Made by a program: the position numbers and the translations under genes
The notes under the pieces: model-generated
Database searches by the model: none
What the model was told of the DNA's origin: nothing
What the model saw: only the letters and a program-made list of their open reading frames with translations
Part shown: piece by piece, positions 1-18,300 of the stretch
How positions within the stretch are numbered: the first letter of the stretch is position 1
Layout of the letters: the number at the start of each line of letters is the position of its first letter
From: Candidatus Poseidoniales archaeon
GTDB taxonomy: Archaea; Thermoplasmatota; Poseidoniia; Poseidoniales; Thalassarchaeaceae
Direction: 5' to 3'
Assembly (NCBI GenBank): GCA_028821675.1
Contig: JAPKFG010000004.1
Coordinates: 1-40,484, forward strand
DNA length: 40,484 bases

Positions 1-2034
1 AGTCAGAACGATGGACATTCATTCAAGCGCTCCGTGAACTTCACGGGAACTGCTCATGATGGTACATGGGCTGGAATTTATGCTTCAGATGAATTAGCTC
101 GCTGGGACCAACAGGGCGCGGTTGAGCAGGTCCAGGTCAAGGACCCCTACACTAGCGATTGGATTGACATGCGACTAGCAGTTGACAACAGCAATTCTGA
201 TGGCGAAGTAACCTACAACAACCATCCTTACAGTCACTGGTATTTCGAGTATGATATGAGCGATCAGCCCGAAGGCGATTATACATTTGAATTCCGTTCA
301 TATGATGGTGTTACAGAATCGCAAATCGTTACACGGACGGTGAAACTGAACACTGAGCCACCCACCATTTGGGTCGATGGTCCAGCATCTGGCACTGTCA
401 TCGATGATGGAATCATTCACTTCACGGGTCGCGCTTCAGATGCCTACAGTGGTATTTTCGGCAGTGACATCCAACGAATCTGGTTTGAAGTCGATGGACC
501 TATCAATTTCGATGGAGTGCCCTACTACAACAAGTTCGACAAACCCGCTGGTACCGCTTGGTCTGCTGATTGGTCCGTTGGGCACCTTCTTTCAGGAACA
601 TACACCGTGAACGTCTGGGCCAGTGATTCCGCTTTCTGCACGAATTCTGCTGATGAATGTACACCGGTCGTACTGACACTTGAGGTTGACAATGACAACG
701 CAATCCCTGTTGTTCAACTTCTCACACCGTTCGATCTACAAACGATTGAGGCGAGTGAAGACACTCTACTGAGTGGCGTCGCGCGCGATACGGATGGCAC
801 GGTCACAAAGGTGGAGATTGTCATCAAGGATCCTCAGGCAGGTTTCCTAGAAATGCCAGAAGGTGAACATTCGTTGGTTCAGGATATTGCGGCCAATGGT
901 GGATGGGCAACCTCGTGGGATACGACTAATTTGGTCCACAATTATCACTATATTATCGAAGTTCGTTCGTTTGATGGATTCCAGTACAGTGATGCTGCAT
1001 CGATTGAAATCATCATCGATAACCCTCCAAATCAAGACAACACACGGCCCACATTCAATTCGACATCGTGGCCCGATTCGGCGACCATCTTCTGTGAAGA
1101 GACTGGAGCCTCACAGAATCGATGTGGCAATGGTTATTTCATCGACTTGACCCAATTCTTCTCTGATGTTGATGCGGGTGATAGCCTGTCTTACTACGTA
1201 TATGACAACCCTGACATGTTTGAGGATGATTATCATGCCGAAGTCGTCTTAATTAGCGGAGATGGAATTGCCAATTACAACCCAATGTCAATGTCGTTTT
1301 ACGAACCTGATATGGCCGATTGGTCTCTCGCCGCTGTAGTTTTCGAAGTTCGAGATAATGCTGATAGCAGAGTATACTCTGCTACTCTCGATTTAGATGT
1401 AGTCGGTGTATCGTTTACCTCGGAATGTGACGGAATCATGGTCGGTGGCGAAGAATTCGTCGAAGGATGCGATGGTCAGATTAGTCAATCTGATACCCTG
1501 ATCTACCGCGGAAACGGAAGACCCACAGTCAGTGTGATTGGAGAGACGGGAGCTGGTTTGCGTCTTGGTAGCACTGCTGTCGGTGAAGATGGTACGTGGA
1601 TGATGGAGATTCCGGGTAATCGTTTGGACAAAGGTGGCAACACCGTCGTCTTCGAATATGGTAGCATTGGACAACCACTGAATGAGGATTCTGAAATCGT
1701 CGTAGAAGGCGGTCTCGATGAGGGTTCAGGCATTTTCATGTGGATACTGATGGTTGTTGGTGCTCTGGTTGTTCTCGGAGTATTGGGTGCAGTCTTCGTA
1801 TTCTTCTTTGTGGAATTCGAAGATGAGTACGATGAGGACCTTGATGAGGCTTCGGCTGAAGAGGTTGATCCGTATGCATGGGCCAAGGAACGTCAGCAAC
1901 AGGATGCTGCCTCCGCTGTAGTCGAACAGGTGGCTCAACCTGCCGTTCAACAGGAAGCCACTCCAGCTGTATCCGGCTACCCTGGTTGGAAGTGGGACGC
2001 AGGGCAGAACAAGTGGATTCCGGACAATGAGTGA
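1..2034 (+). CDS. Ig-like surface protein, C-terminal part (5' truncated by window)
   Basis: The frame is open from base 1, so the ORF track's GTG at 34 is only an internal codon and the gene begins outside the window. The 677 visible residues hold several tandem beta-sandwich (Ig/cadherin-like) units, recognised by recurring P-x-V...G-x-A-x-D patterns such as FTGRASD and LSGVARD, plus a unit with FFSDVDAGDSL. One transmembrane helix lies at about residues 577-605 and is followed by a very acidic stretch (EFEDEYDEDLDE) and a Gln/Ala-rich cytosolic tail ending in the tryptophan-rich GWKWDAGQNKWIPD. The protein is therefore a type I surface protein with its ectodomain outside and about 70 residues inside. 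No enzymatic motif is visible. It is the same kind of protein as the products at 15366 and 30427. The next gene on this strand starts 95 bp downstream. The ligand and function are unknown. Confidence 0.85.
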   Translation, partial: SQNDGHSFKRSVNFTGTAHDGTWAGIYASDELARWDQQGAVEQVQVKDPYTSDWIDMRLAVDNSNSDGEVTYNNHPYSHWYFEYDMSDQPEGDYTFEFRSYDGVTESQIVTRTVKLNTEPPTIWVDGPASGTVIDDGIIHFTGRASDAYSGIFGSDIQRIWFEVDGPINFDGVPYYNKFDKPAGTAWSADWSVGHLLSGTYTVNVWASDSAFCTNSADECTPVVLTLEVDNDNAIPVVQLLTPFDLQTIEASEDTLLSGVARDTDGTVTKVEIVIKDPQAGFLEMPEGEHSLVQDIAANGGWATSWDTTNLVHNYHYIIEVRSFDGFQYSDAASIEIIIDNPPNQDNTRPTFNSTSWPDSATIFCEETGASQNRCGNGYFIDLTQFFSDVDAGDSLSYYVYDNPDMFEDDYHAEVVLISGDGIANYNPMSMSFYEPDMADWSLAAVVFEVRDNADSRVYSATLDLDVVGVSFTSECDGIMVGGEEFVEGCDGQISQSDTLIYRGNGRPTVSVIGETGAGLRLGSTAVGEDGTWMMEIPGNRLDKGGNTVVFEYGSIGQPLNEDSEIVVEGGLDEGSGIFMWILMVVGALVVLGVLGAVFVFFFVEFEDEYDEDLDEASAEEVDPYAWAKERQQQDAASAVVEQVAQPAVQQEATPAVSGYPGWKWDAGQNKWIPDNE

Positions 2035-2129
2035 TAGAGGACACTCCGGACTTGGTCATTGGGTCAGGTTGGGGGTGTTCACATCAGTATCAAAAAGGGA
2101 TGCGTATCAATCGATATGGAGTGGTCAGC

Positions 2130-4652
2130 ATGAGTCATCCCAAACCCGGAGTTCAAGAGCGCATCATGCTGCATCTACGCGACTATGCTGATTACACCGA
2201 TTCTGTTGAGGTTCCATTTGCACTTTCACAGATGGGAATTGCCAATGCGGTTGCCATTGCGCGTAGCAATGTACCTCGTGCAATTGCCGGATTGAAGGAT
2301 GCAAATCATTTGATTGAGCGACAAGCCCACGTTGCCGGAGTTAGTCGGAAGCGCAAGGCGTATTTCCTCACTGATTCGGGCATGGTTCAAGCAGAAGAAA
2401 CATGGAAGCGTCTCTCTGAGCACCCGGTTCGTCTTGTCGACAAAGACGGTGTGACACACACAACCACACTGGCTGGTTCAATCGACATTGCGACATTCCC
2501 ACTTCGAGCAGTGGATGTTCTTCGATACATGGATGATTTGGGGATGCTAGATCTCCGCACTCTTAACGAAGAATTGATTCAGCGCGATCTGGACAAGCAC
2601 GTCGAGAAACAACTCGTCATATCGTTGGGTGATTTGCCGCGCACTCGTGCCTTCTTTGGCCGTGAAACTGAACTGGACAATTTCTGTGCACTTATCGATG
2701 CGCGCTCCTCTTGTCTGTTGGTTCCTGGCATTGCTGGAATCGGAAAAACCGCACTCGCTGGCAAGGTCATCGAGCAATACACACATCGTCGAAATTTACT
2801 CTACCATCGTTGTCAGGATTGGGAAGGCAGTCATGCGTTCTTGGAAGCCTGTGCTGAATGGTTGTCGACTATCGGTGATGATGATTTATCCGACTATATC
2901 CATGCCACATCAGTCCCACAACCCTCCGTGGCTGTCAATCTCATCATCGGTGCATTGGAAGAAATTCCATCACTAATCGTCATCGACGACTTGCACAAGG
3001 TGAATGACGAGGCACTGTACGCCATCATTCGTGGTTTGTCTCAGCGTATGGGGGATGTCCAAGAATGTGGTTTGGTCATGTTCAGTCGCTCGTTCCGAGC
3101 CGTTGTTCCTCTGAAGGATGCTGAAGGCAACATTTCGGCACTGGTGCTGCCATTGGAAGGATTGGACCAATCTGCAAGTCGGCATTTGCTCACGTCGATG
3201 CCTGACATCGATATGTCGGCCTTCCTTCACATTTACACGCTCTCTCGGGGACACCCCCTCATTCTCCAACTGATTAATCGCGGTTCGGTTGGTTCAACCT
3301 TCCACGACTCATTGGAAACTTTCGTTGACGAGGAGATTTTCAGTCGACTTTCTGGTGCCGAAAAGCGGGTTCTTGGTGCCATCGCAATCTATCGCGAGCC
3401 GATGCCATTGGAGGCACTTTCCAATCATGAGATTGAGACGGATTTACTCGGGGATCTAGTCGAAAAGGGATTGGCACGCCAAGTCGATAGCGAAAATTAT
3501 GACGTTCACGATTTAGTTCGTGAATTCTTGCTTCGAACATTTGATGAGTCGACAGCAACCGCTCTACACGGAGCAGCATGTAATTGGTACCGCGTGCGTC
3601 GTGATGCACCAGAACAACAGTTGGAATACATCTACCATCTTGTGAATTCTGGCGATACGGATTCGTTAGGAGGAGTTCTTGATGAAAACGGTCGCTCTTT
3701 GGTTCGCAGTGGCCACATGGAATTGCTACCACTTCTGCTGGAACTTGAAGGTTCACAATTTGAACCGGGTACATGGGCGACTGTTCTTGAGATGCGAGGC
3801 GACATCCTGTCCCTCCAGGGTCGATGGGATGATGCTGAAGCCGAATACGAATCTGCTCTGCCGTTGGTGGAGAAACAGAAGATGCGTGAAATGCAAGGGC
3901 GATTATTGTCTAGCAAAGCGGATTTGGCCCTGCAGAGGGGGGAATCTGATGTTGCGTTAGAGTTGCATCGTCAGGCCCTTGAACTGTTCATCGATACTGG
4001 CGATGCCAAAGGCGCAGCCCGTACGTACAACAACATGGGGTACATTTTCCGTCAACTCAAGGATACCAAGCGTGCCCTCGAGGTCTATGACAACGTCGAG
4101 GAATTGCTTGAAACTGAATCGGATCCTGAACTCCTTGATGTCCGCATCAAGTTGGCCTCAGCCTTCCTTGAAATGGGAGAGATTGACCGTGCACGTGCGC
4201 ACGCCTTGTCCTCATACGAAGAAACCGAGAACTCAGATAATATCGCCCTACACGCCCTTTCTCGTACCGTCCTAGGTAGGTTTTATGCTCGAACAGGTGA
4301 TGCTGATCTCGCCCTTCACCACTATTCAGAAGCGTTGGAACAGATGGCAGAAGAGACAGACCAGCGCAGCGCCGTTGAAATCACCATCCTGTTAGGTGAG
4401 GCGCTTTCTGACGCTGGACGCCCTGAAGAGGCAGTAGGGCATTATCTGGATGGTTTGGCCATGGCTGAAGCCAACGATTTCCGCCCACTCATCGGCGAAT
4501 TGTTGGCGCGCCTAGGTGCGGCCGCCCCTGAGAAGTCTGAACGAATGAACTACCTTCAACGCGCCTTGACTGTTTTCCGTGAACTAGGAGCTAGTGGACG
4601 TATGAGCGATGTACAAGGCCAGATGCATCGCGCCATCATGGGCAGCCATTAG
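2130..4652 (+). CDS. Winged-helix / STAND ATPase / TPR protein
   Basis: This is an 840-residue multidomain protein. The first ~90 residues look like a winged helix, with a MarR-like wing around YFLTDSGMVQAEETW. A conserved entry motif FFGRETEL (about 173) leads into a P-loop ATPase with Walker A GIAGIGKT (about 199-206) and Walker B LIVIDD (about 280-286). The C-terminal half (about 550-830) is tetratricopeptide-like, with units such as ARTYNNMGYIFRQLKD and ALHHYSEALEQM. This order matches STAND-class signal-transduction ATPases of the MalT/AfsR type, which oligomerise on ligand binding. Here the HTH is N-terminal, whereas MalT has it at the C-terminus. I prefer ATG 2130 over the track's TTG-type start at 2031 because GGAGTGG lies about 8 nt upstream and MSHPKPG begins the recognisable HTH. 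The stop codon overlaps the stop of the convergent pilin-like operon by 4 nt. The role (transcription regulator or signalling switch) is inferred. Confidence 0.8.
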   Translation: MSHPKPGVQERIMLHLRDYADYTDSVEVPFALSQMGIANAVAIARSNVPRAIAGLKDANHLIERQAHVAGVSRKRKAYFLTDSGMVQAEETWKRLSEHPVRLVDKDGVTHTTTLAGSIDIATFPLRAVDVLRYMDDLGMLDLRTLNEELIQRDLDKHVEKQLVISLGDLPRTRAFFGRETELDNFCALIDARSSCLLVPGIAGIGKTALAGKVIEQYTHRRNLLYHRCQDWEGSHAFLEACAEWLSTIGDDDLSDYIHATSVPQPSVAVNLIIGALEEIPSLIVIDDLHKVNDEALYAIIRGLSQRMGDVQECGLVMFSRSFRAVVPLKDAEGNISALVLPLEGLDQSASRHLLTSMPDIDMSAFLHIYTLSRGHPLILQLINRGSVGSTFHDSLETFVDEEIFSRLSGAEKRVLGAIAIYREPMPLEALSNHEIETDLLGDLVEKGLARQVDSENYDVHDLVREFLLRTFDESTATALHGAACNWYRVRRDAPEQQLEYIYHLVNSGDTDSLGGVLDENGRSLVRSGHMELLPLLLELEGSQFEPGTWATVLEMRGDILSLQGRWDDAEAEYESALPLVEKQKMREMQGRLLSSKADLALQRGESDVALELHRQALELFIDTGDAKGAARTYNNMGYIFRQLKDTKRALEVYDNVEELLETESDPELLDVRIKLASAFLEMGEIDRARAHALSSYEETENSDNIALHALSRTVLGRFYARTGDADLALHHYSEALEQMAEETDQRSAVEITILLGEALSDAGRPEEAVGHYLDGLAMAEANDFRPLIGELLARLGAAAPEKSERMNYLQRALTVFRELGASGRMSDVQGQMHRAIMGSH

Positions 4653-5122
4653 AATCCAGGTTGCTCGACTTGAATCGTCACTTGGCCTGAATCCAAAACA
4701 ACCCATATTGTTTCGACACCTGCGAGATTAACGACTCCTGAATGATTGGTCGCTGCAGCCCCTGAAATAGGCTGACTTGTACGGTATACCTGTTCACCAT
4801 CCGAAAGGTGTACAGCATCATCAGTCAACCACATCTCAAGATTGAGTCCGATTGCCGATGACAAATGTAATTCTACAGGTTCAGCATAGCGTGCATTCCC
4901 ATCCAATCGTGCGGCTTCATCAGCTCGTTCAACGGCGGCACTCACTGATAGTAGATTTTCTTCCAATGCCTCTTCAGTCCAGCGATTCTGTGTGGAAACT
5001 TCGAGATCCCATACCCATATTGAAAATGTAGAAAGGAACATGAGTCCAAGCAGGAATGTGAATACATAACCAATCTCTGTGGCCGCCGCCGACTCGTCCT
5101 CAACAAAATTACGAGGCATCAT
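4649..5122 (-). CDS. Small pilin-like membrane-anchored protein
   Basis: This 157-residue product is the third gene of a three-gene operon. The ORF track starts it at 5287, but ATG 5122 is preferred because it shares its A with the TAA of the upstream gene (TAATG), a classic translational-coupling arrangement, and because the hydrophobic segment then sits near the N-terminus. The N-terminus MMPRNFVEDESAAATEIG is followed by a ~25-residue hydrophobic helix (YVFTFLLGLMFLSTFSIWVW). This resembles the short charged leader plus helix of archaeal type IV pilin-like and related DUF proteins. The rest (about 110 residues) is a soluble beta-rich domain with no recognised family. It is probably anchored in the membrane and exposed outside. 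It may be a minor pilin or an assembly partner of the two larger upstream products. The stop codon overlaps that of the STAND gene. Confidence 0.65.
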   Translation of the reverse strand: MMPRNFVEDESAAATEIGYVFTFLLGLMFLSTFSIWVWDLEVSTQNRWTEEALEENLLSVSAAVERADEAARLDGNARYAEPVELHLSSAIGLNLEMWLTDDAVHLSDGEQVYRTSQPISGAAATNHSGVVNLAGVETIWVVLDSGQVTIQVEQPGF

Positions 5123-7422
5123 TAGTAACCCCCCAGAGAGGTTTGGCTGGTCAGACTGGCCACTTGTAGATTGAACAATACAGATTCCCCTCCAGCATGG
5201 TATACGACTTCCGGTATCGTCGGCGATGTTTGTACCCATCCAACGTAATCGGTCAACATCTCCAACTGACCAGGGAAGGCCATCCAATCAGACGAATATT
5301 CAACCTCGGCTGCGCTTTCGGCTGCGATTGCAATCGCATATGGCCCATCCCATCCACGACGTACCTGATGTGCATTCATGGTCACAACTTGTTCTCGAAC
5401 ATCTAGGGTCAGTGTGATATCCATTTCAGTTGAACCTCCAACAGAATTCATGGTTGGCATGGCTACTGGAACGGTCGCAGCGAGTCGTGGTCCAGGACCC
5501 TCACGTGAAGGAGGGGGGACCAGGACATCAGCTTTGTACTCTGGATGATTTGTTCCGACAAAACCGCCTCTGGTTAAGATTTGAAGGTTAGTAACACTGG
5601 AATCGAAAGTATATGTTAGGCGTGGTAGATGAAGCGCCCATGCCGAACCTATTGTGGCATGCGTCTCATCACCAACAGCACCACGTATGGAGAGTTGTAA
5701 ACCAAAGAAATGCTCCCCCTCTTGCCAAGCGTTTCGAATATCACTGATCTTCCAATTATCCACAGATGTCCAGGGGAGTTCAATCTGTATCCAACCAGAC
5801 GCCCGAATTCCAACGGTGACACAACGTTCCGCACCATCTTCCAGAATTTCGGTTGAACCATTGTCACCCGTGGATGTATAGGTTCTGAGAATGCCAACAC
5901 TGGTCTCCAGTGAAATAGTTCCGATATGGGTGTTGTCCAACGTTATCACAGTCGCCGGTTGGCTGTGATTAGTTTGACCATTGGAATTGCTGGTTGCCCA
6001 CGACACCATGGGTGCAGCAGATTGCAGAATAAGTTCGGTCGACCCAAGTGCGGGCGCCTCAGCATTACCTCCACTGGTTGGGGCTTCAAACTTCCAATTC
6101 GAGCCGGATAGTCGTCCCGTATCAGTTGCTGGTGTCAGCGACAAACTTCCTGGCCGCCAACCGGCCGCATGGGTGGCAGTATCCCCTACAGTTTGTGTAT
6201 CCAAGAGCCATTCCACATGGATTGGCTCTCCTCCTTCAATCCATGATAGTTGATTTGCATCCCATGGGATTCGAATGTTGGAGTAGCTACTGATTGCGTA
6301 GTACAGACTGCCAATTTTTGCTGTAGTTGGCACGTTGTTCGGGTTGTGAATTAGTAATGACCCATCCATTGCAGGTGGCCGGAAATGCACCCCTGTCCAC
6401 GAACCAGTGCGGTCAGGCCACGCAATCGCTCCAGGCCCACTCCCATCGAGTTCCACCGCATCTCCCCAATGGAGAACTAAGCGTGCGTTGCTGGATGTTC
6501 TAACGACCAGTTGTTCTGCCTGTGAAACCGTAATTTCTCCTTGCCATGTGTGAATTGTGTCACTTTCATCTGAAGGAGATTGAGCGACAGAAATTGACGA
6601 CGATGCTCCACTACCTTCTGTTTCCCCAACCTCCCATTCAAGTGTAAATGGTGAATCAGATTCAAGGTAAACAGAATGAGTGTTTGCAATCAGCGGGATA
6701 GTCCAACTTCGCCCCTCATCGGAACCCGGTGCTGGTTGATCGGGAGTGGCGAGGAATGCGCCGCCCGCTCCTCGCCACATGACGACTCGCAGCGGCATCT
6801 CACTGTGAATCCACGCTTCACCATCCGTGGCACTAATCCCGGCCTGTGTCCACACCTCATCTGTGGCAATGATTTGCTGTATGGTCGTCTCATCATGTTC
6901 AAAACTCAGTTCGTTTGCACCGAGCAAGGTCGTCAGAGTATTGAGTGGTGTGGCTGAAATTGTTCCGTCCAGTATTGGGATTCGGTAATGATTCAACGAT
7001 TCTGCTGAAGCATGTAGATTCGTGGCACAGATGCTTTCAATGCGATGTTCCGCGTGCCTTATTCGCATCGAATCGTCGAGGTCGAGTACACCCTCCAGCC
7101 GCAATGTACTGTCAGGTTGGTGTGTGGCACTGTACCAAGTTCCACCTTCCAATAGTTGCCACCCCAATGTCCCAGTATGCGGTCGAATGGTCATTCTAGC
7201 CGCATCCCCCGGGGTGCCTGATTCACTCAACCGCTCGGTCTCAGATGCTAGATCTTCCATCTGACCTACCATGTTTTCTCGTTCTACAGCACCGTGCAAT
7301 TCGTCGATGACGGGCATCACCGTCACCATCATGCCAGAGATGATTGAAATCACTCCTGCGAAGAGCAACACGGTCGCAATCGCTGCCGAAACCGCCTCCT
7401 CCTCAAGTTCGCGTCTCATCAT
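5122..7422 (-). CDS. Large pilin-like surface protein
   Basis: The 766-residue protein begins MMRRELEEEAVSAAIATVLLF. The short basic/acidic leader and the ~25-residue hydrophobic helix are similar to the class III signal of archaeal pilins, which is processed by the prepilin peptidase. The remaining ~730 residues are extracellular, Thr/Ser/Gly- and Trp-rich and beta-strand-like, with no second transmembrane helix that I can see. ATG 7422 overlaps the preceding gene's TGA by 4 nt (ATGA), and its own TAA overlaps the next ATG, so all three products are probably made in fixed ratio. The length is far above that of ordinary pilins (about 120-200 aa), so it may be a pilin-like adhesin or tip protein rather than the main fibre subunit. 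Function is inferred from the N-terminus and operon only. Confidence 0.7.
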   Translation of the reverse strand: MMRRELEEEAVSAAIATVLLFAGVISIISGMMVTVMPVIDELHGAVERENMVGQMEDLASETERLSESGTPGDAARMTIRPHTGTLGWQLLEGGTWYSATHQPDSTLRLEGVLDLDDSMRIRHAEHRIESICATNLHASAESLNHYRIPILDGTISATPLNTLTTLLGANELSFEHDETTIQQIIATDEVWTQAGISATDGEAWIHSEMPLRVVMWRGAGGAFLATPDQPAPGSDEGRSWTIPLIANTHSVYLESDSPFTLEWEVGETEGSGASSSISVAQSPSDESDTIHTWQGEITVSQAEQLVVRTSSNARLVLHWGDAVELDGSGPGAIAWPDRTGSWTGVHFRPPAMDGSLLIHNPNNVPTTAKIGSLYYAISSYSNIRIPWDANQLSWIEGGEPIHVEWLLDTQTVGDTATHAAGWRPGSLSLTPATDTGRLSGSNWKFEAPTSGGNAEAPALGSTELILQSAAPMVSWATSNSNGQTNHSQPATVITLDNTHIGTISLETSVGILRTYTSTGDNGSTEILEDGAERCVTVGIRASGWIQIELPWTSVDNWKISDIRNAWQEGEHFFGLQLSIRGAVGDETHATIGSAWALHLPRLTYTFDSSVTNLQILTRGGFVGTNHPEYKADVLVPPPSREGPGPRLAATVPVAMPTMNSVGGSTEMDITLTLDVREQVVTMNAHQVRRGWDGPYAIAIAAESAAEVEYSSDWMAFPGQLEMLTDYVGWVQTSPTIPEVVYHAGGESVLFNLQVASLTSQTSLGGY

Positions 7423-8453
7423 TGGACCACAACCTGTTGGAGGATGACATCCAGATGGAAATCACTTGTTGTGGGGTGAAGTGTCAACCCCTCAACCCCA
7501 GAGAGCCTCCCATCGGGCCCAAATCCGACATATTCACTGGAATCTCCTGTTGCACGATGAAGGTCGAACGAATCGGTCCACTGACGCAAGTATCTAGATT
7601 CTGGATTGTCCAATCCTGTGAATTCAGGTAGTAGTTTCAGATTTCTGGCCTGATCGTTGAAGAAGGCAATCACCCCTCGGCTTTCCAAATCCAACGACAC
7701 ATCGGAGTTGCGCTGCATTCCTTCGATGTCGACATCAATTAGCACGAGACTGACGCGCAGACCTCCATCCAATGTCTGATCATGATGAAGTCGAGGATAA
7801 CTGCGAACATCGATTGGTTGATTCGGAAGTTGTTCGATTCGAGCCCCGTTGACGAGATTGATTTGAAAAGTACCTTCTGTGAGGGGGGTTCGTAGCTGAA
7901 CTCCATCCAATGGAGTTTGAATCCAACGGTGGATGGTTTGATTCATGTCATTCAGAACATCAACGCTAATCCACTCTTGCATACTCAGATTCGTTGTGAG
8001 TTCTCCTTGCCCCTCGCTCAAGTCCCATTGTTCGGAACCGACACTGGTTTGGATGGCCACCGAAGAAGCCGTCTCATTCAATGAATTCACATGGATGATT
8101 CCATTGTCGAGGGAAACTGACACCCGGTCATGGCCTGCAAGATCGGCACTGATTTGCCATATCTCTGCATTTCGAAGCGGTTCTATTGTGTCAAAGATGT
8201 GTTGACTGTTAACCACAATCCCTGTCCCAGCCGGCGATTCCGCGACCACTAACAAACGATCATTGAATTGCGTTGCAGCAACGCTTCCTGCCGCCCAATC
8301 CCGGTTGTCTGTCAAATCTTCCATGAAGGGTTGCATGACGATAATTACACCCGACATTGTCGAGATGACCATAGCCAACAACATCGTCACCCCCATGATT
8401 TCGGAAACCGCTCGCTCATCTGCCGATTGCCAGGTGGCGGCGGAGGGGCGCAT
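7419..8453 (-). CDS. Archaeal type IV pilin-like protein
   Basis: The 344-residue product carries the clearest archaeal-pilin signature in the window. The segment DERAVSEIMGVTMLLAMVIS (about residues 11-30) matches the D-R-A-V-S-x-x-x-G-hydrophobic pattern of archaeal pilin N-terminal domains, with the charged leader cut just before the hydrophobic helix. A soluble ectodomain of about 300 residues follows, rich in beta strands and lacking recognised enzymatic motifs. An in-frame TAA lies 24 nt upstream of ATG 8453, so no longer start exists. A CTAAGAAC box is centred about 25 nt upstream of the ATG, compatible with a leaderless transcript. It is the first gene of the three-gene overlapping operon (8453 to 4649). 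It may form the major subunit of a surface filament or an adhesive pseudopilus. No ATPase (PilB/FlaI type) or TadC-like platform gene is in the window. Confidence 0.75.
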   Translation of the reverse strand: MRPSAATWQSADERAVSEIMGVTMLLAMVISTMSGVIIVMQPFMEDLTDNRDWAAGSVAATQFNDRLLVVAESPAGTGIVVNSQHIFDTIEPLRNAEIWQISADLAGHDRVSVSLDNGIIHVNSLNETASSVAIQTSVGSEQWDLSEGQGELTTNLSMQEWISVDVLNDMNQTIHRWIQTPLDGVQLRTPLTEGTFQINLVNGARIEQLPNQPIDVRSYPRLHHDQTLDGGLRVSLVLIDVDIEGMQRNSDVSLDLESRGVIAFFNDQARNLKLLPEFTGLDNPESRYLRQWTDSFDLHRATGDSSEYVGFGPDGRLSGVEGLTLHPTTSDFHLDVILQQVVVQ

Positions 8454-8516: not shown

Positions 8517-9317
8517 TCAACGCGACAGGATCTCTGCTTCCGCCTGCCCGAGCCAGTGGCTGAATTCCGGTCCATTCTGCGTTGAGACTCGCAAATCTCC
8601 TGACCAATTTTCATTCTGAAACAACACTTCGCTTTCGGCGAGATGTGGGGCATTGTTTTTCTCGGAGAGATGACACAGAACAACACTTTTTGTTTGAGGA
8701 CCTAATATTTCCGCCAACAAGTCTGCAGTTTGCCGATTAGAAAGGTGTCCGCCTCGTCCCGATATTCGTGCTTTGAGATGTGCAGGATACGGACCTAGAG
8801 TCAACCGTTTTGCATCATAATTTGACTCGATTGAGATGTGTGCGCAACCCTTGAGATGTTGAATCAACTCCTCTGTCGGTTCACCCAAATCAGTCACTAC
8901 GGCGGCCCGGCCATTTGAGCCCGAATTGATGATGAATCCGACGTTATCCGCACCATCGTGTGGAATTGGCACAGGTAGTACCGACAAATCCGGCGAAATC
9001 TGCATGCGTTCAAGGGCCTCAAAGATACGGCATTGATTGATTGGATCGAATCCAAGTTGCGCACATGTCGTGAAGTTCGCGAACAATTGTGCCCCATGAC
9101 GTTTTTGGAAAATCCGAGCTCCTTGAACATGATCTGAGTGGTGGTGACTGAGAAGGATGGCATTTATTGACTTTGGATCAACTCCAATTTGTGCTAAACG
9201 ATGCTCCATCTGGCGTCCGCTGAACCCGCAATCGATGAGCACTTTCGACTCCTCTGTTTGCAGCAGCGTCGCATTGCCGCGGCTGCCCGAACCAAGGTGT
9301 GTAATCTCGAGTGTCAT
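8517..9317 (-). CDS. WalJ/YycJ-like metallo-beta-lactamase fold hydrolase
   Basis: The product is 266 residues. Family features are the N-terminal LGSGSRGNATLL, the metal-binding HHHSDH (fitting HxHxDH), VTDLGE in the middle, GHLSNRQTADLL, and the C-terminal CHLSEKNNAPHLA. All match YycJ/WalJ-type MBL hydrolases, which bind two divalent metals and are thought to act on nucleic-acid phosphodiesters. The ORF track runs to 9737, but that extension covers the divergent giant gene. ATG 9317 begins at the conserved TLEITHLGSGS and has AGGTTAGG just upstream. The gene is divergently transcribed from the 9567 gene. A CTAAAA box about 70 nt upstream (9385-9393) could be its promoter. The exact substrate in archaea is not known. 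Confidence 0.85.
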   Translation of the reverse strand: MTLEITHLGSGSRGNATLLQTEESKVLIDCGFSGRQMEHRLAQIGVDPKSINAILLSHHHSDHVQGARIFQKRHGAQLFANFTTCAQLGFDPINQCRIFEALERMQISPDLSVLPVPIPHDGADNVGFIINSGSNGRAAVVTDLGEPTEELIQHLKGCAHISIESNYDAKRLTLGPYPAHLKARISGRGGHLSNRQTADLLAEILGPQTKSVVLCHLSEKNNAPHLAESEVLFQNENWSGDLRVSTQNGPEFSHWLGQAEAEILSR

Positions 9318-9566: not shown

Positions 9567-12500
9567 ATGCGTCGAAAGCAAACTGCGCTCTTGATTACGG
9601 TCCTTATTCTCGGCTCGATGATTTTCGTCAGTCAAATTCGTCCCAGTAGCCCGGTTCAATCGGTTCACCCTGGCGACACTACAGGCGAAGGCCCCCCGAT
9701 TACAGACCGAGACAAGGATGGAATGCCTGATCTTCACGAGGAAGCTTTCAGTGAATCCGTGTTTCTGGATTTAGGAGACCGTTCCCGAACGATTCCCGGT
9801 TTAGATCCGGATAACGGAACGGACAATCAGAGTGATCACGATTATGATGGCCTGACCGCGTTGATGGAATATTGTTGGCCTTACAGTTTGGATTCATGTT
9901 TCACTAACAACCGGACTGGCCTTCCAGGCAAACCTTCGGAAATTTCTGAGACTGGTTTGCGCTGGTATCTTGATCCGCGATCTGCTGACACCGATGGCGA
10001 TGGTTTGCCAGATGGATTTGAGGTTGCGATGTGTATGTCGAAAACCGGATATGAAAACGTTTCACACGTATGGAATTGCGATGCATTCGATCCACTGAAC
10101 AGCAGTGATGGCCTGATTGATAGTGACAGATGCCGCGATCTCACATTAGGCTGCGGTGATGGCTTCGATGTTGATCGAAATGGTATTATTGAACCGCACG
10201 AGTACTATACGAATGCCGAGGAATATATGTACGGCGCACCTGAAAATTGGGTCACTGAATTCGATGGTCTTCGGTGTTCTGGTGACTCGGATGACATTCC
10301 ACCTCTGGTCAATCCTTGCCGTACAGAAGAGACGCGTCCGACAGGTGAATCTGGCTGGCTTGGCACGGATCCTCTAGACAATGATACCGACTATTATCGC
10401 TGGGTTGGCAATCCCGGTCAAGCACTTGGTCAGACTCAGAAAGGCGATGGTATCGTTGATGGATGGGAGATTTACTTCCAACTCGACCCTCTCAACAGCA
10501 GTGACGCACTAATTGACAGTGATTGGGATGGCTGGGATTTCAATCGGGATGGGGCCATCTCCCCCGACACCTCAAGTTCGACGCTCGATCTAGGTGAGGT
10601 GTTCAGCAATCTAGAGGAGTACACCGTCTATCGTGATGATGGCAATTGGGTCACGGCTGGTGTCAAACACGCCCCTCTCGGCGTTGCAAGTCAAACGGTG
10701 ACCACATTTGATCAAGGCACAACGCCGAGTTTATTGCATCATAATGCGCATTCAATCTTCTCGGATGATAGCCATGGGCTGATCTATGTTGGGACCATGC
10801 GCGGCGTTACCGTCATGAACCCTTCAATGAATTATTCCAATCACTTTGAGTTGCCTTCAGGGGTTGATTTACTCGATTTGTATATGTGGTCAGATGGCGG
10901 TGATGATGGTGTTCTTCTTTTGTCTACGACTTCGGGTCTCATGACCCTTGCCCTAGATGTCGATGGTCAAATCTCATCCGTGGTCGATGACATTGAAACT
11001 GAAGCCCTGAATCTGATGGTGCCTATTCAGACCGGTAGTGGTGGGCAATCCATCCTGCTCGGCTTTGGTGCGGACCAGAGCGTTTGGCGCGTCACCCTTG
11101 ATTCACAAGGCCTCATCAGTTCTCCGACCACAGTCGTGCAACTCACGGCAGCCCTTCAACAGCAAGAGAATGCGACTGTAGAGACTGCAGTACATGTTGT
11201 TCTACCCAGTGAAGGCCCCCGTTTATTCGTGGGAACTGATCGCGGCTTACTGATGGCCAACAGTTCCGATTTTGTTGGCGGCTTCGAGTCAACTTGGATT
11301 TTTGATATCAGCAATGCCGAGGATTTCGTGATGCCAGCCGATGCCATTGATTCAGCCTTGGCCGCTCGCGTACAGACGCTATTTGTCGACGGCCCCCGTG
11401 ATGCCAACGGGGATATCACCAGTCCACAGACTCTCTGGGTCGGGACCCGGGGTGGTGTTCACCAATTCGATTTGATTGTCGGTCCATCGACCCCCCTTGG
11501 TGCATTTTCGTACGATCGAATGAACAATGAAGAAGAATTCACCGCCAATGATGTTCTTTCGATATTACCGCTAGGTGACGAGGTGATTATCGGTTCTCAG
11601 TGGGGCTCGTGGGCTCTTGATGCAGACCACACTCGTTCTTCTGGAGTGGAACCCGATCACACTCGAATTCCCGGACGCATTGTCGACATGACGGTGTTGG
11701 ATATTGACGGCCAACCCTTCTTGTTCGCAGCGTTAGATCCAGGTATCTACGCCAACATGGTTCTAATCGATCCATTATCGAATGATTCCGATGCGGATGG
11801 AATGCCAGATGGTTGGGAATTCATATTTGGATTAGATCCAACAAATCCCTTTGATCGCGATGATGATCCCGATGCCGATGGCGTAAATTTAAATCCGGAC
11901 GACAACGAATATTTCGATCGAAGTTGGTCCAATCTCGACGAGTTCCGCTATGTTGCGACTTCTGAGCAGGGATGGAACAGTACTGACCCCCAATTGTCCG
12001 ACACGGATGGGGACGGCTTGTTGGATGGCGAGGAATATTGGGGATTCTTCCTCGAAAAGACGAATTTCACCTGCCATTACCTCAATGGTGAATACCTGTG
12101 TGATGAACCAACAGGACAAGCCGCTCGTACAACTTACATCACCGGTTGGTCAGATTCTGGCGCTGGTGGCGGCACAGACCGCAGCATCGATCCGACGAAT
12201 ATCGATACAGACCAAGATGGAATGCCGGATGGTTGGGAAATCCAATATCGCCGTTGGATAGGACAGACATTCCATGGCGGAAACGATTGGTCTCTAGATC
12301 CCACAGATCCTACGGATGCGTTTGATGACGCGGATGGAGATGGTCTGACGAATATCTGCGAATATCAATGGCAACAAATTCGCCTTTTCGTCCTCGAACA
12401 AGGTCTGTACACACACAATGAAACTGCAGAAGGGGCTGCGGGCTGGGTCGACACAGACCCCAACCTCGCTGATTCTGATGGTGATGGCCTCCCTGATGGC

Positions 12501-15272
12501 TGGGAAGCCCGATACACCTGTTCCTGGTCCTCTGCTCAAGAGGGTTTGAATCCACTGAATGGTTCTGATGCAGGGAACAATCCTGATGGTGATGGATATG
12601 ACGTGAATCACGATGGTATCTTGCAACCAGATGAGATGTTGACCAATTGGATGGAGTATTACATGTCATCCTTAATCATGCTAGGGGATGTCGACCAAAA
12701 TGGCAATCCATTGCCAATAACCACATCACTGTTCAACGATTCATGGAATGGCTCGGCGACCGAGCCGTTCGGCTTCTATGTGACACAGGAAGTCATTGAC
12801 GACCAACCCCTTGCCCCTCAGGGGGACCAAGGCACCAGCGATCCATTGAGTCGTGACACTGATCAAGATGGCATGCCCGATGGTTGGGAGGTGTACTTCG
12901 CTCGCTGGGATGTGTACAATGATGGCTGGACGCTGAATCCGGTCATGGAGTTAGATTCCCTCGGTGATCCTGATGGGGATGGGATGACCAATTGGGAAGA
13001 ATACAATTCAATCGGTTCAAATTACACAGAGACAAACCCGGACCAATCCAGTCCTCAGTACTACGTTTTCGGCGTGGCAGGGATAGCCTCAATTCAAGTT
13101 TGGAATGAAGCTGGTTCGATGACACCATTTGGTGCCTTCATTACTCCGGAACAGATTGCCATTGGCGGGCGCACGTGCGATCCAAACAACCCAGACACAG
13201 ATGGAGACGGTATGTATGACGGAATTGAACTACTCTTCACGCAATGGAATCAGAGTGATATGGTTTGGACTCTGAATCCAATGGTTGCTGGTGATGGTCA
13301 TTATGATGCAGATCATGATGCCTTGACTGATTTACAAGAATTGAATCTGACCGTACAGAACCCTGTCAATGGCGGCTTATCGCCACCCGATGCTCCACGG
13401 ATGTGGGAAGAGGCCATTGCGATAAATGAGAATGCATTCTTGCAACGAATCAATTCGATGCTATTCGCCAAGGGCAATCGAGCAATGATTGCAGCTGAAC
13501 AATATCTTGATTGGCGCAGCAGTCCGGAAATCCCCCCTCCCCCTCTTTTGTCGACGATTATCGGCATCACAGATCCAACCAACAATGATTCAGACAATGA
13601 TCAGATGATTGATGGCTATGAGTACTGGTTTACCGAATGGGATTTGGATGGCAACCATTGGGAGATGAACCCTCTCACTTCAGCAGATGTTGATTTCGAT
13701 TCTGACAATGATTCGTGGGATTGCAACGGTGATGGGGTAATCGACGACAATGAATCCTATGACAATCTTGCCGAATATCAGGCTCGAATCTATGGTAACT
13801 ACGACCAACGTTTCACCGTGCCACCCGAGTTCGGTCTGGTCAGTTACGGGCGCGACATGATGAATGCTCACCAGGAAGAGACTGGAATGACTGAATTCCA
13901 AGCCCGCGGTCTTCTTTACGATCTTTTCGTCGCAAAGGATGTGATGAGCAGCGAGAGAATGCTGCGCATCAATGACGCATATTCAGACAATTGGAATTTG
14001 AGTCTTTGGGGAATCTCGGATCCAACTCACGCCGATTCTGACGGTGATACGATGCCAGATGGTTGGGAATTCTGTTATTCCATTTACACCGAGACTCTAC
14101 CTATGAACAGCTGGCGTTGGAGTTTGAATCCCGTGAATCCCCTCGATGTGGATTACGATCCCGATGCGGATGGATGGTTTGACCGTACTTCAGGAGATAT
14201 ACCAGCCGAGCAAGGTTCGTGGGACTCACGAACATTCACACCCTATGATTCAAGTCAGCAGCTTTCCCCTGGAAACAGCCCCCTATTCTTTACCAATATT
14301 CAAGAGTGGGAATTCGGAACACTACCAATCTCCAACGATACCGATGGAGATGCCATTCAGAAGGTTCGAGAAGAATCGAATGGAGTGACAACCGGGTATG
14401 ATTATTCATGGACACTCAGCGATGGCCGTGAGGTGTACAAGTTCGGTACCAATCCCATTGACGACGATACGGACGGTGACATGCTTCCAGACTGGTGGGA
14501 GCACGATACTGGATGGAACGAATCCAATGACAATTGGTCCTCATTCCTTCACATCAAGGTTGTCTGGGAGGATTTCGGAGCAACCAAGAAACCTCTGAAT
14601 GTTTCCGGGATGGATTTGGCACGCCCTAACATGGAATGGACTTGGGCCACCTTCGACCCACGCGACCCCACAGATTCCACCGCAGATCCCGACAATGATG
14701 GTGGCTGGGATTGCTCCGGGCCAACCTGCATTTACATCCCGTACAATAACTTCCAGGAATTTTATGGAAATACCACTTTGGCGAGTGCCACTCAGGTTCG
14801 AGGTTCACCGTTACTTTACCAAGGTGAACAAATTATGGAATGGTGGCAATTGCGTGGATATCTGTTGCAGACGGGTACGCCGAACGACATCTATGCCAAT
14901 TATTTCCGCATGTATCGAATCAACACAACCGATGACCTGTATGCCAACGTACTCTACGACAACGATATCGATTACATGCTTCTCGACCCGACCGATGATG
15001 TCTCTATCTGTAGAGGTGATTGGACTGACGATTGGGAACGACGTTGGGGTACTTTTGACCGATTCCCCAACATTGGCCAAGGTGAGTATGTATGGGGTTG
15101 GTGGAACCTCGATATCGATGGGGACAACATCGCTGATGGAACGGATCCAATCAACTACGATACTGATGGTGATTGGCTGAATGATTGGTTTGAGATTGAT
15201 GACGATATGGTTGATGGTGTTCGCGGAAATGGCGGCTCCCCCATCCGATATGACGATCGCACAACCACATGA
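9567..15272 (+). CDS. Giant secreted protein with calcium-binding D-rich repeats and a propeller-like region
   Basis: This 1901-residue protein starts with a signal peptide (MRRKQTALLITVLILGSMIF). ATG 9567 has AGGTGAG upstream. The body is built of about 20 Asp-rich loops of the thrombospondin-3/dockerin type, for example DTDGDGLPDGWE, DTDQDGMPDGWE and DPDGDGMTNWEEY. They are often paired in modules of ~90-110 residues with LNP and EEY landmarks, and such loops bind calcium in known families. Residues about 371-731 interrupt the array with a region of repeated G-T-x-x-G-h patterns (GTMRGVTVM, GTDRGLLMA, GTRGGVHQF), suggesting a beta-propeller like two-component-regulator propellers. There is no C-terminal transmembrane helix or obvious anchor, so it is either released or held by partners. 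The downstream neighbour is another giant surface protein, 93 bp away. It may be a surface-layer, adhesin or scaffold protein; no enzymatic site is visible. Confidence 0.85.
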   Translation: MRRKQTALLITVLILGSMIFVSQIRPSSPVQSVHPGDTTGEGPPITDRDKDGMPDLHEEAFSESVFLDLGDRSRTIPGLDPDNGTDNQSDHDYDGLTALMEYCWPYSLDSCFTNNRTGLPGKPSEISETGLRWYLDPRSADTDGDGLPDGFEVAMCMSKTGYENVSHVWNCDAFDPLNSSDGLIDSDRCRDLTLGCGDGFDVDRNGIIEPHEYYTNAEEYMYGAPENWVTEFDGLRCSGDSDDIPPLVNPCRTEETRPTGESGWLGTDPLDNDTDYYRWVGNPGQALGQTQKGDGIVDGWEIYFQLDPLNSSDALIDSDWDGWDFNRDGAISPDTSSSTLDLGEVFSNLEEYTVYRDDGNWVTAGVKHAPLGVASQTVTTFDQGTTPSLLHHNAHSIFSDDSHGLIYVGTMRGVTVMNPSMNYSNHFELPSGVDLLDLYMWSDGGDDGVLLLSTTSGLMTLALDVDGQISSVVDDIETEALNLMVPIQTGSGGQSILLGFGADQSVWRVTLDSQGLISSPTTVVQLTAALQQQENATVETAVHVVLPSEGPRLFVGTDRGLLMANSSDFVGGFESTWIFDISNAEDFVMPADAIDSALAARVQTLFVDGPRDANGDITSPQTLWVGTRGGVHQFDLIVGPSTPLGAFSYDRMNNEEEFTANDVLSILPLGDEVIIGSQWGSWALDADHTRSSGVEPDHTRIPGRIVDMTVLDIDGQPFLFAALDPGIYANMVLIDPLSNDSDADGMPDGWEFIFGLDPTNPFDRDDDPDADGVNLNPDDNEYFDRSWSNLDEFRYVATSEQGWNSTDPQLSDTDGDGLLDGEEYWGFFLEKTNFTCHYLNGEYLCDEPTGQAARTTYITGWSDSGAGGGTDRSIDPTNIDTDQDGMPDGWEIQYRRWIGQTFHGGNDWSLDPTDPTDAFDDADGDGLTNICEYQWQQIRLFVLEQGLYTHNETAEGAAGWVDTDPNLADSDGDGLPDGWEARYTCSWSSAQEGLNPLNGSDAGNNPDGDGYDVNHDGILQPDEMLTNWMEYYMSSLIMLGDVDQNGNPLPITTSLFNDSWNGSATEPFGFYVTQEVIDDQPLAPQGDQGTSDPLSRDTDQDGMPDGWEVYFARWDVYNDGWTLNPVMELDSLGDPDGDGMTNWEEYNSIGSNYTETNPDQSSPQYYVFGVAGIASIQVWNEAGSMTPFGAFITPEQIAIGGRTCDPNNPDTDGDGMYDGIELLFTQWNQSDMVWTLNPMVAGDGHYDADHDALTDLQELNLTVQNPVNGGLSPPDAPRMWEEAIAINENAFLQRINSMLFAKGNRAMIAAEQYLDWRSSPEIPPPPLLSTIIGITDPTNNDSDNDQMIDGYEYWFTEWDLDGNHWEMNPLTSADVDFDSDNDSWDCNGDGVIDDNESYDNLAEYQARIYGNYDQRFTVPPEFGLVSYGRDMMNAHQEETGMTEFQARGLLYDLFVAKDVMSSERMLRINDAYSDNWNLSLWGISDPTHADSDGDTMPDGWEFCYSIYTETLPMNSWRWSLNPVNPLDVDYDPDADGWFDRTSGDIPAEQGSWDSRTFTPYDSSQQLSPGNSPLFFTNIQEWEFGTLPISNDTDGDAIQKVREESNGVTTGYDYSWTLSDGREVYKFGTNPIDDDTDGDMLPDWWEHDTGWNESNDNWSSFLHIKVVWEDFGATKKPLNVSGMDLARPNMEWTWATFDPRDPTDSTADPDNDGGWDCSGPTCIYIPYNNFQEFYGNTTLASATQVRGSPLLYQGEQIMEWWQLRGYLLQTGTPNDIYANYFRMYRINTTDDLYANVLYDNDIDYMLLDPTDDVSICRGDWTDDWERRWGTFDRFPNIGQGEYVWGWWNLDIDGDNIADGTDPINYDTDGDWLNDWFEIDDDMVDGVRGNGGSPIRYDDRTTT

Positions 15273-15281
15273 TTTCAATCC

Positions 15282-15312
15282 CGGGTCACGGCCCCTTAAG
15301 GGGCCTGACCCG
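15282..15312 (+). repeat. Strong GC-rich hairpin between the two giant genes
   Basis: GGCCCCTTAAGGGGCC is a perfect 16-bp palindrome, and it extends through CGGGTCA on the left and TGACCCG on the right with a single bulged C (15289). It starts 10 nt after the stop of the 9567 gene and ends about 50 nt before the next start. No T-run follows, so it is not a typical archaeal terminator. It could be an mRNA processing or stabilising hairpin, or a barrier. Confidence 0.7.
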
Positions 15313-15365
15313 TGGGGAAGAGTTTGATAGGATAGACCGAGGTCGATTCTTTGCGGGGCGGGATT

Positions 15366-18300
15366 GTGAATACTGAAAAGCGGCCCATTCTGAAGAGTGT
15401 CACGCTACTCGCATTGTTCCTAGTATCTTTGTTTGCTGCCGCCATTCAACCACCCATTGAACCAATTCTCGACATCGAAGTGGTCGATTCGACCAGTGGC
15501 GGAGCCCGTCACCTGTACACCTTTGCTGATGGTTCATCTGAGGCTATCGCCCTCTATCAGTCCGGCACCCCTGCTCGTAACATTCAGGTGACAATGCCAC
15601 GGGGCGCTGAAGTCACAGGAGCAGAGGTAACGATTTCAGGAGCTTCAGCAACGGGTTGGAATAGCATTTCTGACACAACTCGAGCCGATTGGTCAGAAGG
15701 TACCCCGATTTTAATTGATACAAGAGGCGATTCGATTACGCTGTCACCCAAGGACACTCAAAATTGGTTTGAACCCCATGATTATGATTCAAATCCTTCG
15801 TCGGCAAACGCTTGGTATGACAACACCTCTTATTCCATTCGACAACCACATACAACAAATGTCAGCGAGACTCGTTTCACTTCTCAACTTTCCTTGCCCT
15901 CAGGAACCACTGCAACTTACAATGGCGCAGCGTTTGTGTATCGAAACATGATTTTCGCATCGACATGGGATTCCAATTTACTCAAGAACACAGTCAAGGT
16001 ATTGTTCCCGAACAATGGGACACAGATGACCTCTGGTCCAAACAATCAGCCACTTCGTCCTGATTTGGATATCGGAACGTGTTCGGTACCGTCTCTTGCA
16101 AGTTCATGGCAAGCCTATGGTTGGCGAGATTGGGCCATAACCGATGATGAACGTGCATTCGGAATCTTATCGGCATATAGGAGCCAAAACGCTGTACAGT
16201 ATCATCGAATCATAGAATGGGATATTCGTCATCCTCTGGCTTGGAAGTGTATTTCTTCCTACGATGTCAGTAGTGGAGGGTATGGTGATTACACCGCCAT
16301 TTCATACGATCGAACACGCGATAGTATCTGGGTCAACCATGGAGTTCGTAAATCCGTGATTCAGTATGAGTTCGATGGCGCAGGGGGATTTGAGCGTAAC
16401 AGCACTGATTTCTACACTTATTTCATGTCGAGTGGCCAAGTTCGTGGTATGTCTGTCCACGGCGATATTTTCTGGTTTAGAACCTATCAAACTTGGAACT
16501 CAGATCACTTGGAGTGCTTTGCAGTTACGGGTTCACCTGGAAGCGTGCTAACCAAGCAAACTGGCTCAACCTCGGTTCCAGCCAATGGATATGGACTCCA
16601 TTATGATGGCCAACGATTGAATACACTGGATCACTATTCATGGACTCAAGGGCAGCGCTACCGGGAATATGGCAGCGGTATATCTTACCTAATTACCGCC
16701 CAACCTGGAACTTCAACTTGGGTTAGTGAGATCATGGAAGTCGACGAAGCCATCGTTGCTGCCAATATGGAGGTCTCTTGGACGACCAGTGCTGCCGGTG
16801 ACCGTGTCGAATACTGGATTAGTGCTGATGGTGGAACGCACTGGGTCTCTGTAACAAACAATGAGACAGTCCACTTCGATTATCCTGGAACCGAACTGAA
16901 ATGGAAAGTACAGTTGGTTGGGACAACCGCCGTATCATGGTGGGTTTCCATCGATTATGCTTCCGAGTATGAATCTGCAGGAGAATGGGAGTCACCCACA
17001 TTGTCGACAGGCACCCAGGTCGGGCGAATGCGTGCGACATGGACTACCGACGTACCTTCTGGAACTAACACTGCAGTGTGGGTGTCCAACGACGAAGGCC
17101 AATCTTGGGTATCGGCTGAAAACGATGTAGAGATTGATTGGGGTACAGATGTCGGAAACAAACTGATTTACAAGATTGGCCTAAACACCAGCGATTCCAC
17201 AATCACCCCCTCGTTAGATGAGTTCACCTTGCACTACGAAGAAGGATATCCAAGTGGTGTCAGAATCGATATCGGCGATGATGGAACCGATGAATACGTT
17301 GGCACAGGTGGATTACAGGATCCGATTGTGGTGACAGGTCAATCTCTTGTGGAGGCTCTCAACAATGAGATTCCACAGAATGGCGAAGGTTCTGTCAACA
17401 TCACATTCACAATTCGTGCAGCTAGCCCAGGTCGGGTCCGTCTTTCAGATCTCGACATCACCTATCGTTATCGCACGCGGGTGATTGACACATCCATAGA
17501 TGGTGGGATGCTGGTTCCCGATGGGACCAATCGAATCCTCGTGACTCAGATTGCAATCGGTGATGATGCCACGCTTCTGCAACAAGTCGATTTGACGCTG
17601 CAATCCAGCCATGGTGCTGACCCACTCCTGCGTTGGCAGGTCGGCGATTCCTGTACTGAAGAAGCAGATGGTGACAACATCGTCATGTTCGATGCTGGAA
17701 ACTGCACTTCAGTCTCTACGGCGGAAGACCTTGTCAGTATCCGCATGCCGATTCAAGCGGAGTGGGGGTGGGATGATGAATCTTCGACAGAAGTGAATAT
17801 CAGCGTCACAGACGATATCGGCTTGGCTGTCAATAATTACGAAACCGAGAATCTCAATTTGCGTGTTGAGAATGACATACAATTGCTCGATATGATGGCA
17901 ATCGACGAGTCTGGTCGAGAACTCTTAGCTTACGACTGGATGCGAGGTGGAACCAACCTCACCTTCAGTGGCACCATTGCCTTTGAAGGTACGACATTGT
18001 CACCCCAAGCGGGCCAATTCAACCTTGAGTTATCGGGGGAGAATCTTACTCAAGATGGGGAGCCGATGGGTGATGGGGCAGAGATTTTCATGTTGGAAGC
18101 CAATCCTGCATACGGGCAGTACTACATGACATTCCAAACGCCCATACAATCTAGTCAAGGTGGAATGTTATTCCAATTATCTGCGATTTCTCTACACAAT
18201 GGTTCCAATTATGTAAATCCGAATTTCAATACCATGCGAATAGTTCTAGATGGAAATAGTCCATTGGTCATGGATGCGACACCTGAAGATGGAATCGAAG

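Follow-up and report, generated by a model that had tools for sequence, protein, structure and literature searches.

A conserved prepilin trio with a giant middle product in Marine Group II archaea, a candidate part of a two-locus type IV pilus

Euryarchaeal pili of the PilB3/PilB4 type are described as having an ATPase, two TadC/PilC-like genes and several small all-beta pilins, together with the arCOG02911 minor pilin, which is often duplicated and varies in length from ~250 to 550 residues (Makarova et al. 2016, PMC4858521). Pilins of these systems may be encoded in trans, and the PilB3 locus of Haloferax holds no pilin genes (PMC4858521). The CdiP pilus of Cuniculiplasma divulgatum has its pilin genes ~500 kb from the machinery operon and a platform encoded in two genes (PMC12448462). 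In the bacterium Streptococcus sanguinis, large modular minor pilins have been modelled at the filament tip (PMC8179133, PMC9934059). Here we describe three overlapping genes, P1, P2 and P3, on a 40,484-nucleotide stretch of DNA (the window; contig JAPKFG010000004.1 of assembly GCA_028821675.1) from Candidatus (Ca.) Thalassarchaeaceae (Marine Group II), order Poseidoniales. We consider it likely that they encode three prepilins of a two-locus archaeal type IV pilus, an attachment fibre with P2 as its probable tip adhesin.

As in the PilB3/PilB4-type pili, an ATPase and a two-gene platform are found here together with small pilins, one pilin family of variable length and pilins possibly encoded in trans. 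However, P2, with its 766 residues, lies beyond the arCOG02911 range, and five pilin-type genes are here spread over two fixed loci. CdiP, from the Thermoplasmatales, belongs to the same phylum and shares the remote pilins and the two-gene platform, but has two ATPase genes where a single PilB is found here; its pilins are small, CdiPB having 135 residues, and a giant subunit is not mentioned in the parts of its description that were consulted (PMC12448462). The split of pilins and machinery thus has precedents in Haloferax PilB3 (PMC4858521) and in Cuniculiplasma (PMC12448462). The PilA-PilB-PilC complex of S. sanguinis also comprises three minor pilins, of which some bear a bulky module on their class III helix, and capping of the filament and ligand binding have been proposed for them; their modules are bacterial and belong to recognised domains (vWA, ConA-like lectin), and P2 is likened to them by architecture, with no sequence kinship expected. 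The system is of a known kind; its conserved subunit of giant size, together with what look like equivalents encoded at PilB/PilC loci across Thermoplasmatota, appears to be a new variation on it.

No member of Marine Group II has been cultured, although no other planktonic archaea reach a higher abundance in surface waters, and their attachment to particles has been ascribed to archaellum ('flagella'), thrombospondin and flotillin genes (PMC6461757). The present analysis ties a separate, putative pilus-type appendage to defined Marine Group II genes, with a pilin set and an assembly set that co-occur although unlinked, and singles out one protein, P2, as a candidate adhesin. DUF7289 and DUF7266, Pfam families without assigned function, can now be tested as families of type IV pilins that work with PilB/PilC. 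No paper naming DUF7289 was found among the openly licensed ones; an earlier description elsewhere is possible.

The trio and its class III N-termini

The trio consists of the following genes, each called from its open reading frame and assigned to a type by orthologue scans:

7419..8453, minus strand, P1: 344-residue prepilin of DUF7289 type, whose gene opens the trio
5122..7422, minus strand, P2: 766-residue giant prepilin with a DUF7289-like N-terminus
4649..5122, minus strand, P3: 157-residue prepilin of DUF7266 type

An original prediction made from the DNA letters had proposed a trio with ATGA and TAATG overlaps and an unusually large middle product, and the reading frames at 8453-4649 on the minus strand bear out both. 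The ATG of P2 (7422-7420) overlaps the TGA of P1 (7421-7419), and the ATG of P3 (5122-5120) overlaps the TAA of P2 (5124-5122). Orthologues favour a P3 start at 5122 or close by, and the longer version with a TTG start (5287) is a mechanical listing.

All three products begin with a charged leader of 10-15 residues and a small residue, followed by a long hydrophobic helix that starts with VSEI in P1, VSAA in P2 and AAATEIGY in P3 (^ marks the predicted cut):

8409..8453, minus strand, P1 leader MRPSAATWQSADERA, predicted cut before VSEI (sequence and conserved A/G at position -1); N-terminus MRPSAATWQSADERA^VSEIMGVTMLLAMVISTMSGVIIVM
7393..7422, minus strand, P2 leader MMRRELEEEA, predicted cut before VSAA (sequence and conserved A at position -1); N-terminus MMRRELEEEA^VSAAIATVLLFAGVISIISGMMVTVM
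5090..5122, minus strand, P3 leader MMPRNFVEDES (sequence and orthologue conservation); N-terminus MMPRNFVEDES^AAATEIGYVFTFLLGLMFLSTFSIWVW, with the cut expected ahead of one of the first three A residues

The P1 site, RAVS, is listed for Haloferax PilA pilins (PMC4371748). Class III leaders were found in all three window proteins and in ~50 distinct orthologues of each, in keeping with the charged leader and hydrophobic helix predicted for the trio. Position -1 is A or G, with charged residues ahead, in nearly all distinct orthologues of P1 and P2 (A in 47 of 49 for P2), and in P3 an A or G precedes AATE in 49 of 49. A FlaFind-like rule for class III sites is passed by P1, P2 and P3 and by two others of the 25 called window genes, both of which resemble ordinary signal peptides; 16 of 205 genes of other loci also pass, some of them clearly non-pilin. 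Because the rule alone is loose, evidential weight is placed on conservation.

The most conserved segment in the orthologues of each protein (~50 distinct sequences each) is the start of the helix, mean column identity in the orthologue alignments being 0.74-0.80 over the first 30 mature residues and 0.51-0.55 past residue 60. Pilin helices pack in the filament core, and stronger conservation in the helix than in the head is therefore the pattern expected of pilins. The linkage is conserved as well. P1 is present in 33 of 118 genomes of Ca. Thalassarchaeaceae (4 of 11 genera), gene order and strand are unchanged and the packing is tight wherever the trio is complete (41 of 41 loci), and an identical layout occurs in the sister family Poseidoniaceae, including one single-contig genome. 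Plain signal anchors and no linkage in relatives had been named in advance as the outcome that would count against the pilin proposal; class III sites and a trio conserved across two families were found instead.

The N-termini of P1 and P2 both match DUF7289 (PF23960; curated Pfam cut-off 27 bits), and the P3 family matches DUF7266 (PF23928; 27.6 bits). Matches to DUF7289 were obtained in 25 of 31 P1 orthologues and, below cut-off, at the N-terminus of 22 of 26 P2 orthologues; Pilin_N matches P1 orthologues weakly (16 of 31), and DUF7266 matches 6 of 28 P3 orthologues below cut-off. A Poseidoniaceae orthologue of P1 passes the DUF7289 cut-off with 28.2 bits, and one of P3 passes that of DUF7266 with 28.0 bits (profile positions 2-133 of 145). 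A scan of the trio against NCBIfam gave nothing meaningful, and profile and alignment comparison detected no kinship of P3 to P1. The predicted model of P1 (predicted local distance difference test, pLDDT, 76.6) has a helix at residues 11-72 (62 residues) and then a beta-rich head, a shape suggestive of the lollipop fold of pilins. A sequence search of solved structures returned one chance-level match for P1 and none for P2.

Assembly machinery and its linkage to the trio

No match to T2SSE or T2SSF was found on the window contig (C92), and the earlier statement that no ATPase or platform gene lies nearby stands to that extent; it does not extend to the genome, in which PilB and PilC2 lie on other contigs. 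The start of PilB is at the end of contig C102, and contig C33 (4 kb) carries PilC2 and two further pilin-like genes. Relatives carry the full locus PilB-PilC1-PilC2-pilin-pilin, with T2SSE and T2SSF above cut-off, and PilB of the window lineage matches PilB3_C below cut-off. Contig C78 encodes a Pilin_N protein of ~164 residues, a candidate major pilin. An archaellum-like set (FlaJ ~600 residues) is also among the genes of the genome or genus, and the same genome encodes a further ATPase, of Tad-like type, along with a pair of platform genes (G000:C10; L143, L003).

A genome search for PilB/TadC homologues and a prepilin peptidase, proposed with the original prediction, yields PilB, PilC2 and an A24-type peptidase. 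This divergent peptidase is overlooked in Ca. Thalassarchaeaceae by the standard Peptidase_A24 model (PF01478), which has no match in the 118 family genomes. A search for weak matches, with PF01478 relaxed to E 10, led to a multi-helix protein of ~335 residues with the motifs D-x-K-x-RR and GGADAK. The copy of the trio's own genome (G000:C29:6886-7860) passes PF06847, the Archaeal Peptidase A24 C-terminus (30.4 vs 29.9), and the protein occurs in 6 of 11 genera, including all four with the trio. Its gene adjoins two FlaH/KaiC-like ATPase-type genes, and a 359-residue protein beside it has a class III-like N-terminus and a lamin-tail domain (G000:C29, L231:3538-8022).

P2 was detected in 120 of 194 Poseidoniales genomes. 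Compared with strong matches to PilC2, the weak ones (E above 1e-7) being a separate FlaJ-like platform, both proteins were present in 112 genomes, P2 only in 8, PilC2 only in 1 and neither in 73, in tallies made by hand from two tables and uncorrected for shared ancestry. All nine discordant genomes fall short of 90% completeness; of the 34 genomes that reach this level, 23 have P2 and 23 have PilC2. A distance of ~361 kb separates the trio and machinery loci in G132, a Poseidoniaceae genome on a single contig. In metagenome-assembled genomes of family f3 of the same class, which from its position we infer to be Marine Group III, one operon holds a DUF7289 gene, a DUF7266-like (P3-like) gene, PilB, PilC1, PilC2, a DUF7262/7288-like gene and a small pilin-like gene. 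The DUF7289 protein of this operon has 330-362 residues, with one above cut-off, and P1 aligns with it over 320 columns (E 2.7e-9). The machinery in the genome, the co-occurrence and the Marine Group III operon suggest an archaeal type IV pilus system encoded in two halves, of which the trio is one.

The archaellum-like or Tad-like apparatus could in principle be the partner in place of PilB-PilC1-PilC2, as such genes are present in the genome or genus and one peptidase probably serves all sets. We regard this as highly improbable, since genus g5 has a FlaJ-like platform and the peptidase without the trio, whereas PilC2 tracks the trio and the P1 family is joined to PilB/PilC in the Marine Group III operon. 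Because both other sets occur in the genome, the assignment of the partner rests on this co-occurrence and on Marine Group III.

The giant subunit P2 and the proposed pilus

Two regions can be distinguished in P2 beyond the helix:

6118..6987, minus strand, P2 middle: repeated beta domain, residues ~146-230 and ~345-435 (profile self-comparison and model)
5125..5700, minus strand, P2 C-terminal region: conserved, residues ~575-766 (orthologue alignment)

About 700 residues of P2 lie beyond the helix, and its mature length is 670-763 residues in all copies except four, which are truncated or broken. Of the 238 positions of the DUF7289 profile, the match covers no more than the first 70-odd. The beta-domain repeat was recovered by profile self-comparison with a probability of 91%, against at most 1.5% in 30 column-shuffled controls, and the modelled middle is rich in beta strands (pLDDT mostly 80-90). 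The C-terminal region carries the motifs GGFVGTNHPE, REGPGPR, RRGWDGPY and DYVGWVQ, and its column identity is mostly 0.5-0.7 vs 0.3-0.55 in the middle, the fast-evolving and least conserved part between two conserved ends. Derivation of P2 from P1 by an insertion ahead of a common C-terminal head was unsupported by profile comparison, in which only the N-terminal part is common.

By analogy with the streptococcal proteins, P2 is probably a modular pilin and tip adhesin, and its bulk most likely places it at the tip of the filament. It might also sit along the shaft or at the base, for instance as a part of the machinery: system-specific minor pilins may be distributed along the filament (PMC10191384), and a base or machinery role has been considered for the minor pilin CdiPA (PMC12448462). 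Such a position appears unlikely given the bulk of P2, the analogous modular pilins that fit at the tip only (PMC8179133) and the fast-evolving middle, as expected for an exposed binding surface.

Large pilin-type proteins encoded at PilB/PilC loci of other Thermoplasmatota fit a tip adhesin:

L225:6338-8506, minus strand, large pilin-type protein
L261:5257-12116, plus strand, large pilin-type protein
L260:9132-12569, plus strand, large pilin-type protein
L230:2403-7751, plus strand, large pilin-type protein

Proteins of 722 and 1,320 residues at such loci combine Pilin_N with a ConA-like lectin domain, one of 1,782 residues has Pilin_N, CARDB and MAM domains, and the 1,145-residue product of L260 has a DUF7289-like N-terminus. 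The last also contains a Hint/intein-like domain at residues 135-260, shortly past the pilin helix, and may thus be a pilin that splices or cleaves itself. Pilins of giant size seem to recur across Thermoplasmatota. A broader proposal, plausible but somewhat short of probable, is that pili in this phylum, including Marine Group II, are tipped by giant modular pilins (~700-1,800 residues) that carry lectin-like or other adhesive modules on DUF7289/Pilin_N helices, as an archaeal counterpart of bacterial modular pilins serving attachment to particles or cells.

The large PilB/PilC-linked proteins also bear on the proposal that the trio forms a non-filamentous, pilin-anchored surface complex (bindosome-like) that stays unpolymerised while PilB/PilC serve other pilins only. 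Such an arrangement is known for substrate-binding proteins of archaea that bear class III leaders (PMC4371748), the trio always has an Ig-domain protein and giant surface proteins as its neighbours, and the size of P2 is unusual for a pilin. Against these stand the near-perfect co-occurrence with PilC2, the P1 family in the same operon as PilB/PilC in Marine Group III, and the position of other large pilin-type proteins at PilB/PilC loci. The original prediction had raised this alternative on the ground that ATPase and platform were missing, an argument that falls with the machinery in the genome; the complex itself is kept as a rival, which we judge rather improbable.

In the pilus that we favour, the precursors would be inserted via Sec with the head outside, and the divergent PibD/FlaK-type A24 peptidase (contig C29) would cut the leader just ahead of the helix. 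The ATPase PilB and the two-protein platform PilC1/PilC2, encoded with two small pilin-like genes at the unlinked locus (contigs C102 and C33 in the trio's own genome), would then polymerise the mature subunits. P1 and P3 would be ordinary minor pilins and P2 a pilin helix bearing a beta-rich head of ~700 residues, which together with P1 and P3 may cap the filament tip and turn an adhesive surface toward particles or cells.

Several points weigh against this explanation. The window proteins P1 (21.0 bits) and P2 (20.1 bits) do not reach the DUF7289 cut-off and are regarded as relatives of that family and not formal members, and the Pfam scan gave no DUF7266 match at all for the window P3. Foldseek searches with the P1 and P2 models matched no solved pilin and returned just local beta-sandwich/jelly-roll matches, with template modelling (TM) scores of ~0.2 or less on the query. 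The helix and C-terminal region of the P2 model are of low confidence, and no recognised domain was found in the P2 head by Pfam, NCBIfam and orthologue scans or by the sequence search of solved structures. In addition, the genome holds the archaellum-like and Tad-like sets, and shared ancestry may contribute to the co-occurrence. The surface appendage with a giant pilin-type subunit originally predicted is supported by the class III sites, the two-family trio and the machinery, whereas processing, entry into the filament, tip position and adhesion are steps that we infer.

Neighbouring genes

The neighbours of the trio are constant, namely an Ig-domain protein, a STAND/TPR protein, an MBL hydrolase and a giant TSP3-repeat protein. 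In the window, the following were recorded:

2031-4652, plus strand, AAA/TPR protein of STAND type whose N-terminus resembles a winged helix; its gene converges on the trio, next to which it is always found, and it is a possible regulator
8517-9317, minus strand, MBL-fold hydrolase directly upstream of P1 on the same strand, with a conserved 63-nucleotide gap
9567-20882, plus strand, two giant surface proteins side by side, adjoining the trio in both Poseidoniales families: 1,901 residues with TSP3 repeats, and 1,843 residues with one helix near the C-terminus

The hydrolase gene perhaps shares a transcription unit with the trio; its 406-residue reading frame reaching 9737 is probably too long, as homology begins near 9317. 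At the machinery loci, PilC2 frames broken by one TGA were observed in two genomes of genus g15 (G211:C5:95106-96620 and G358:C8:62885-64396).

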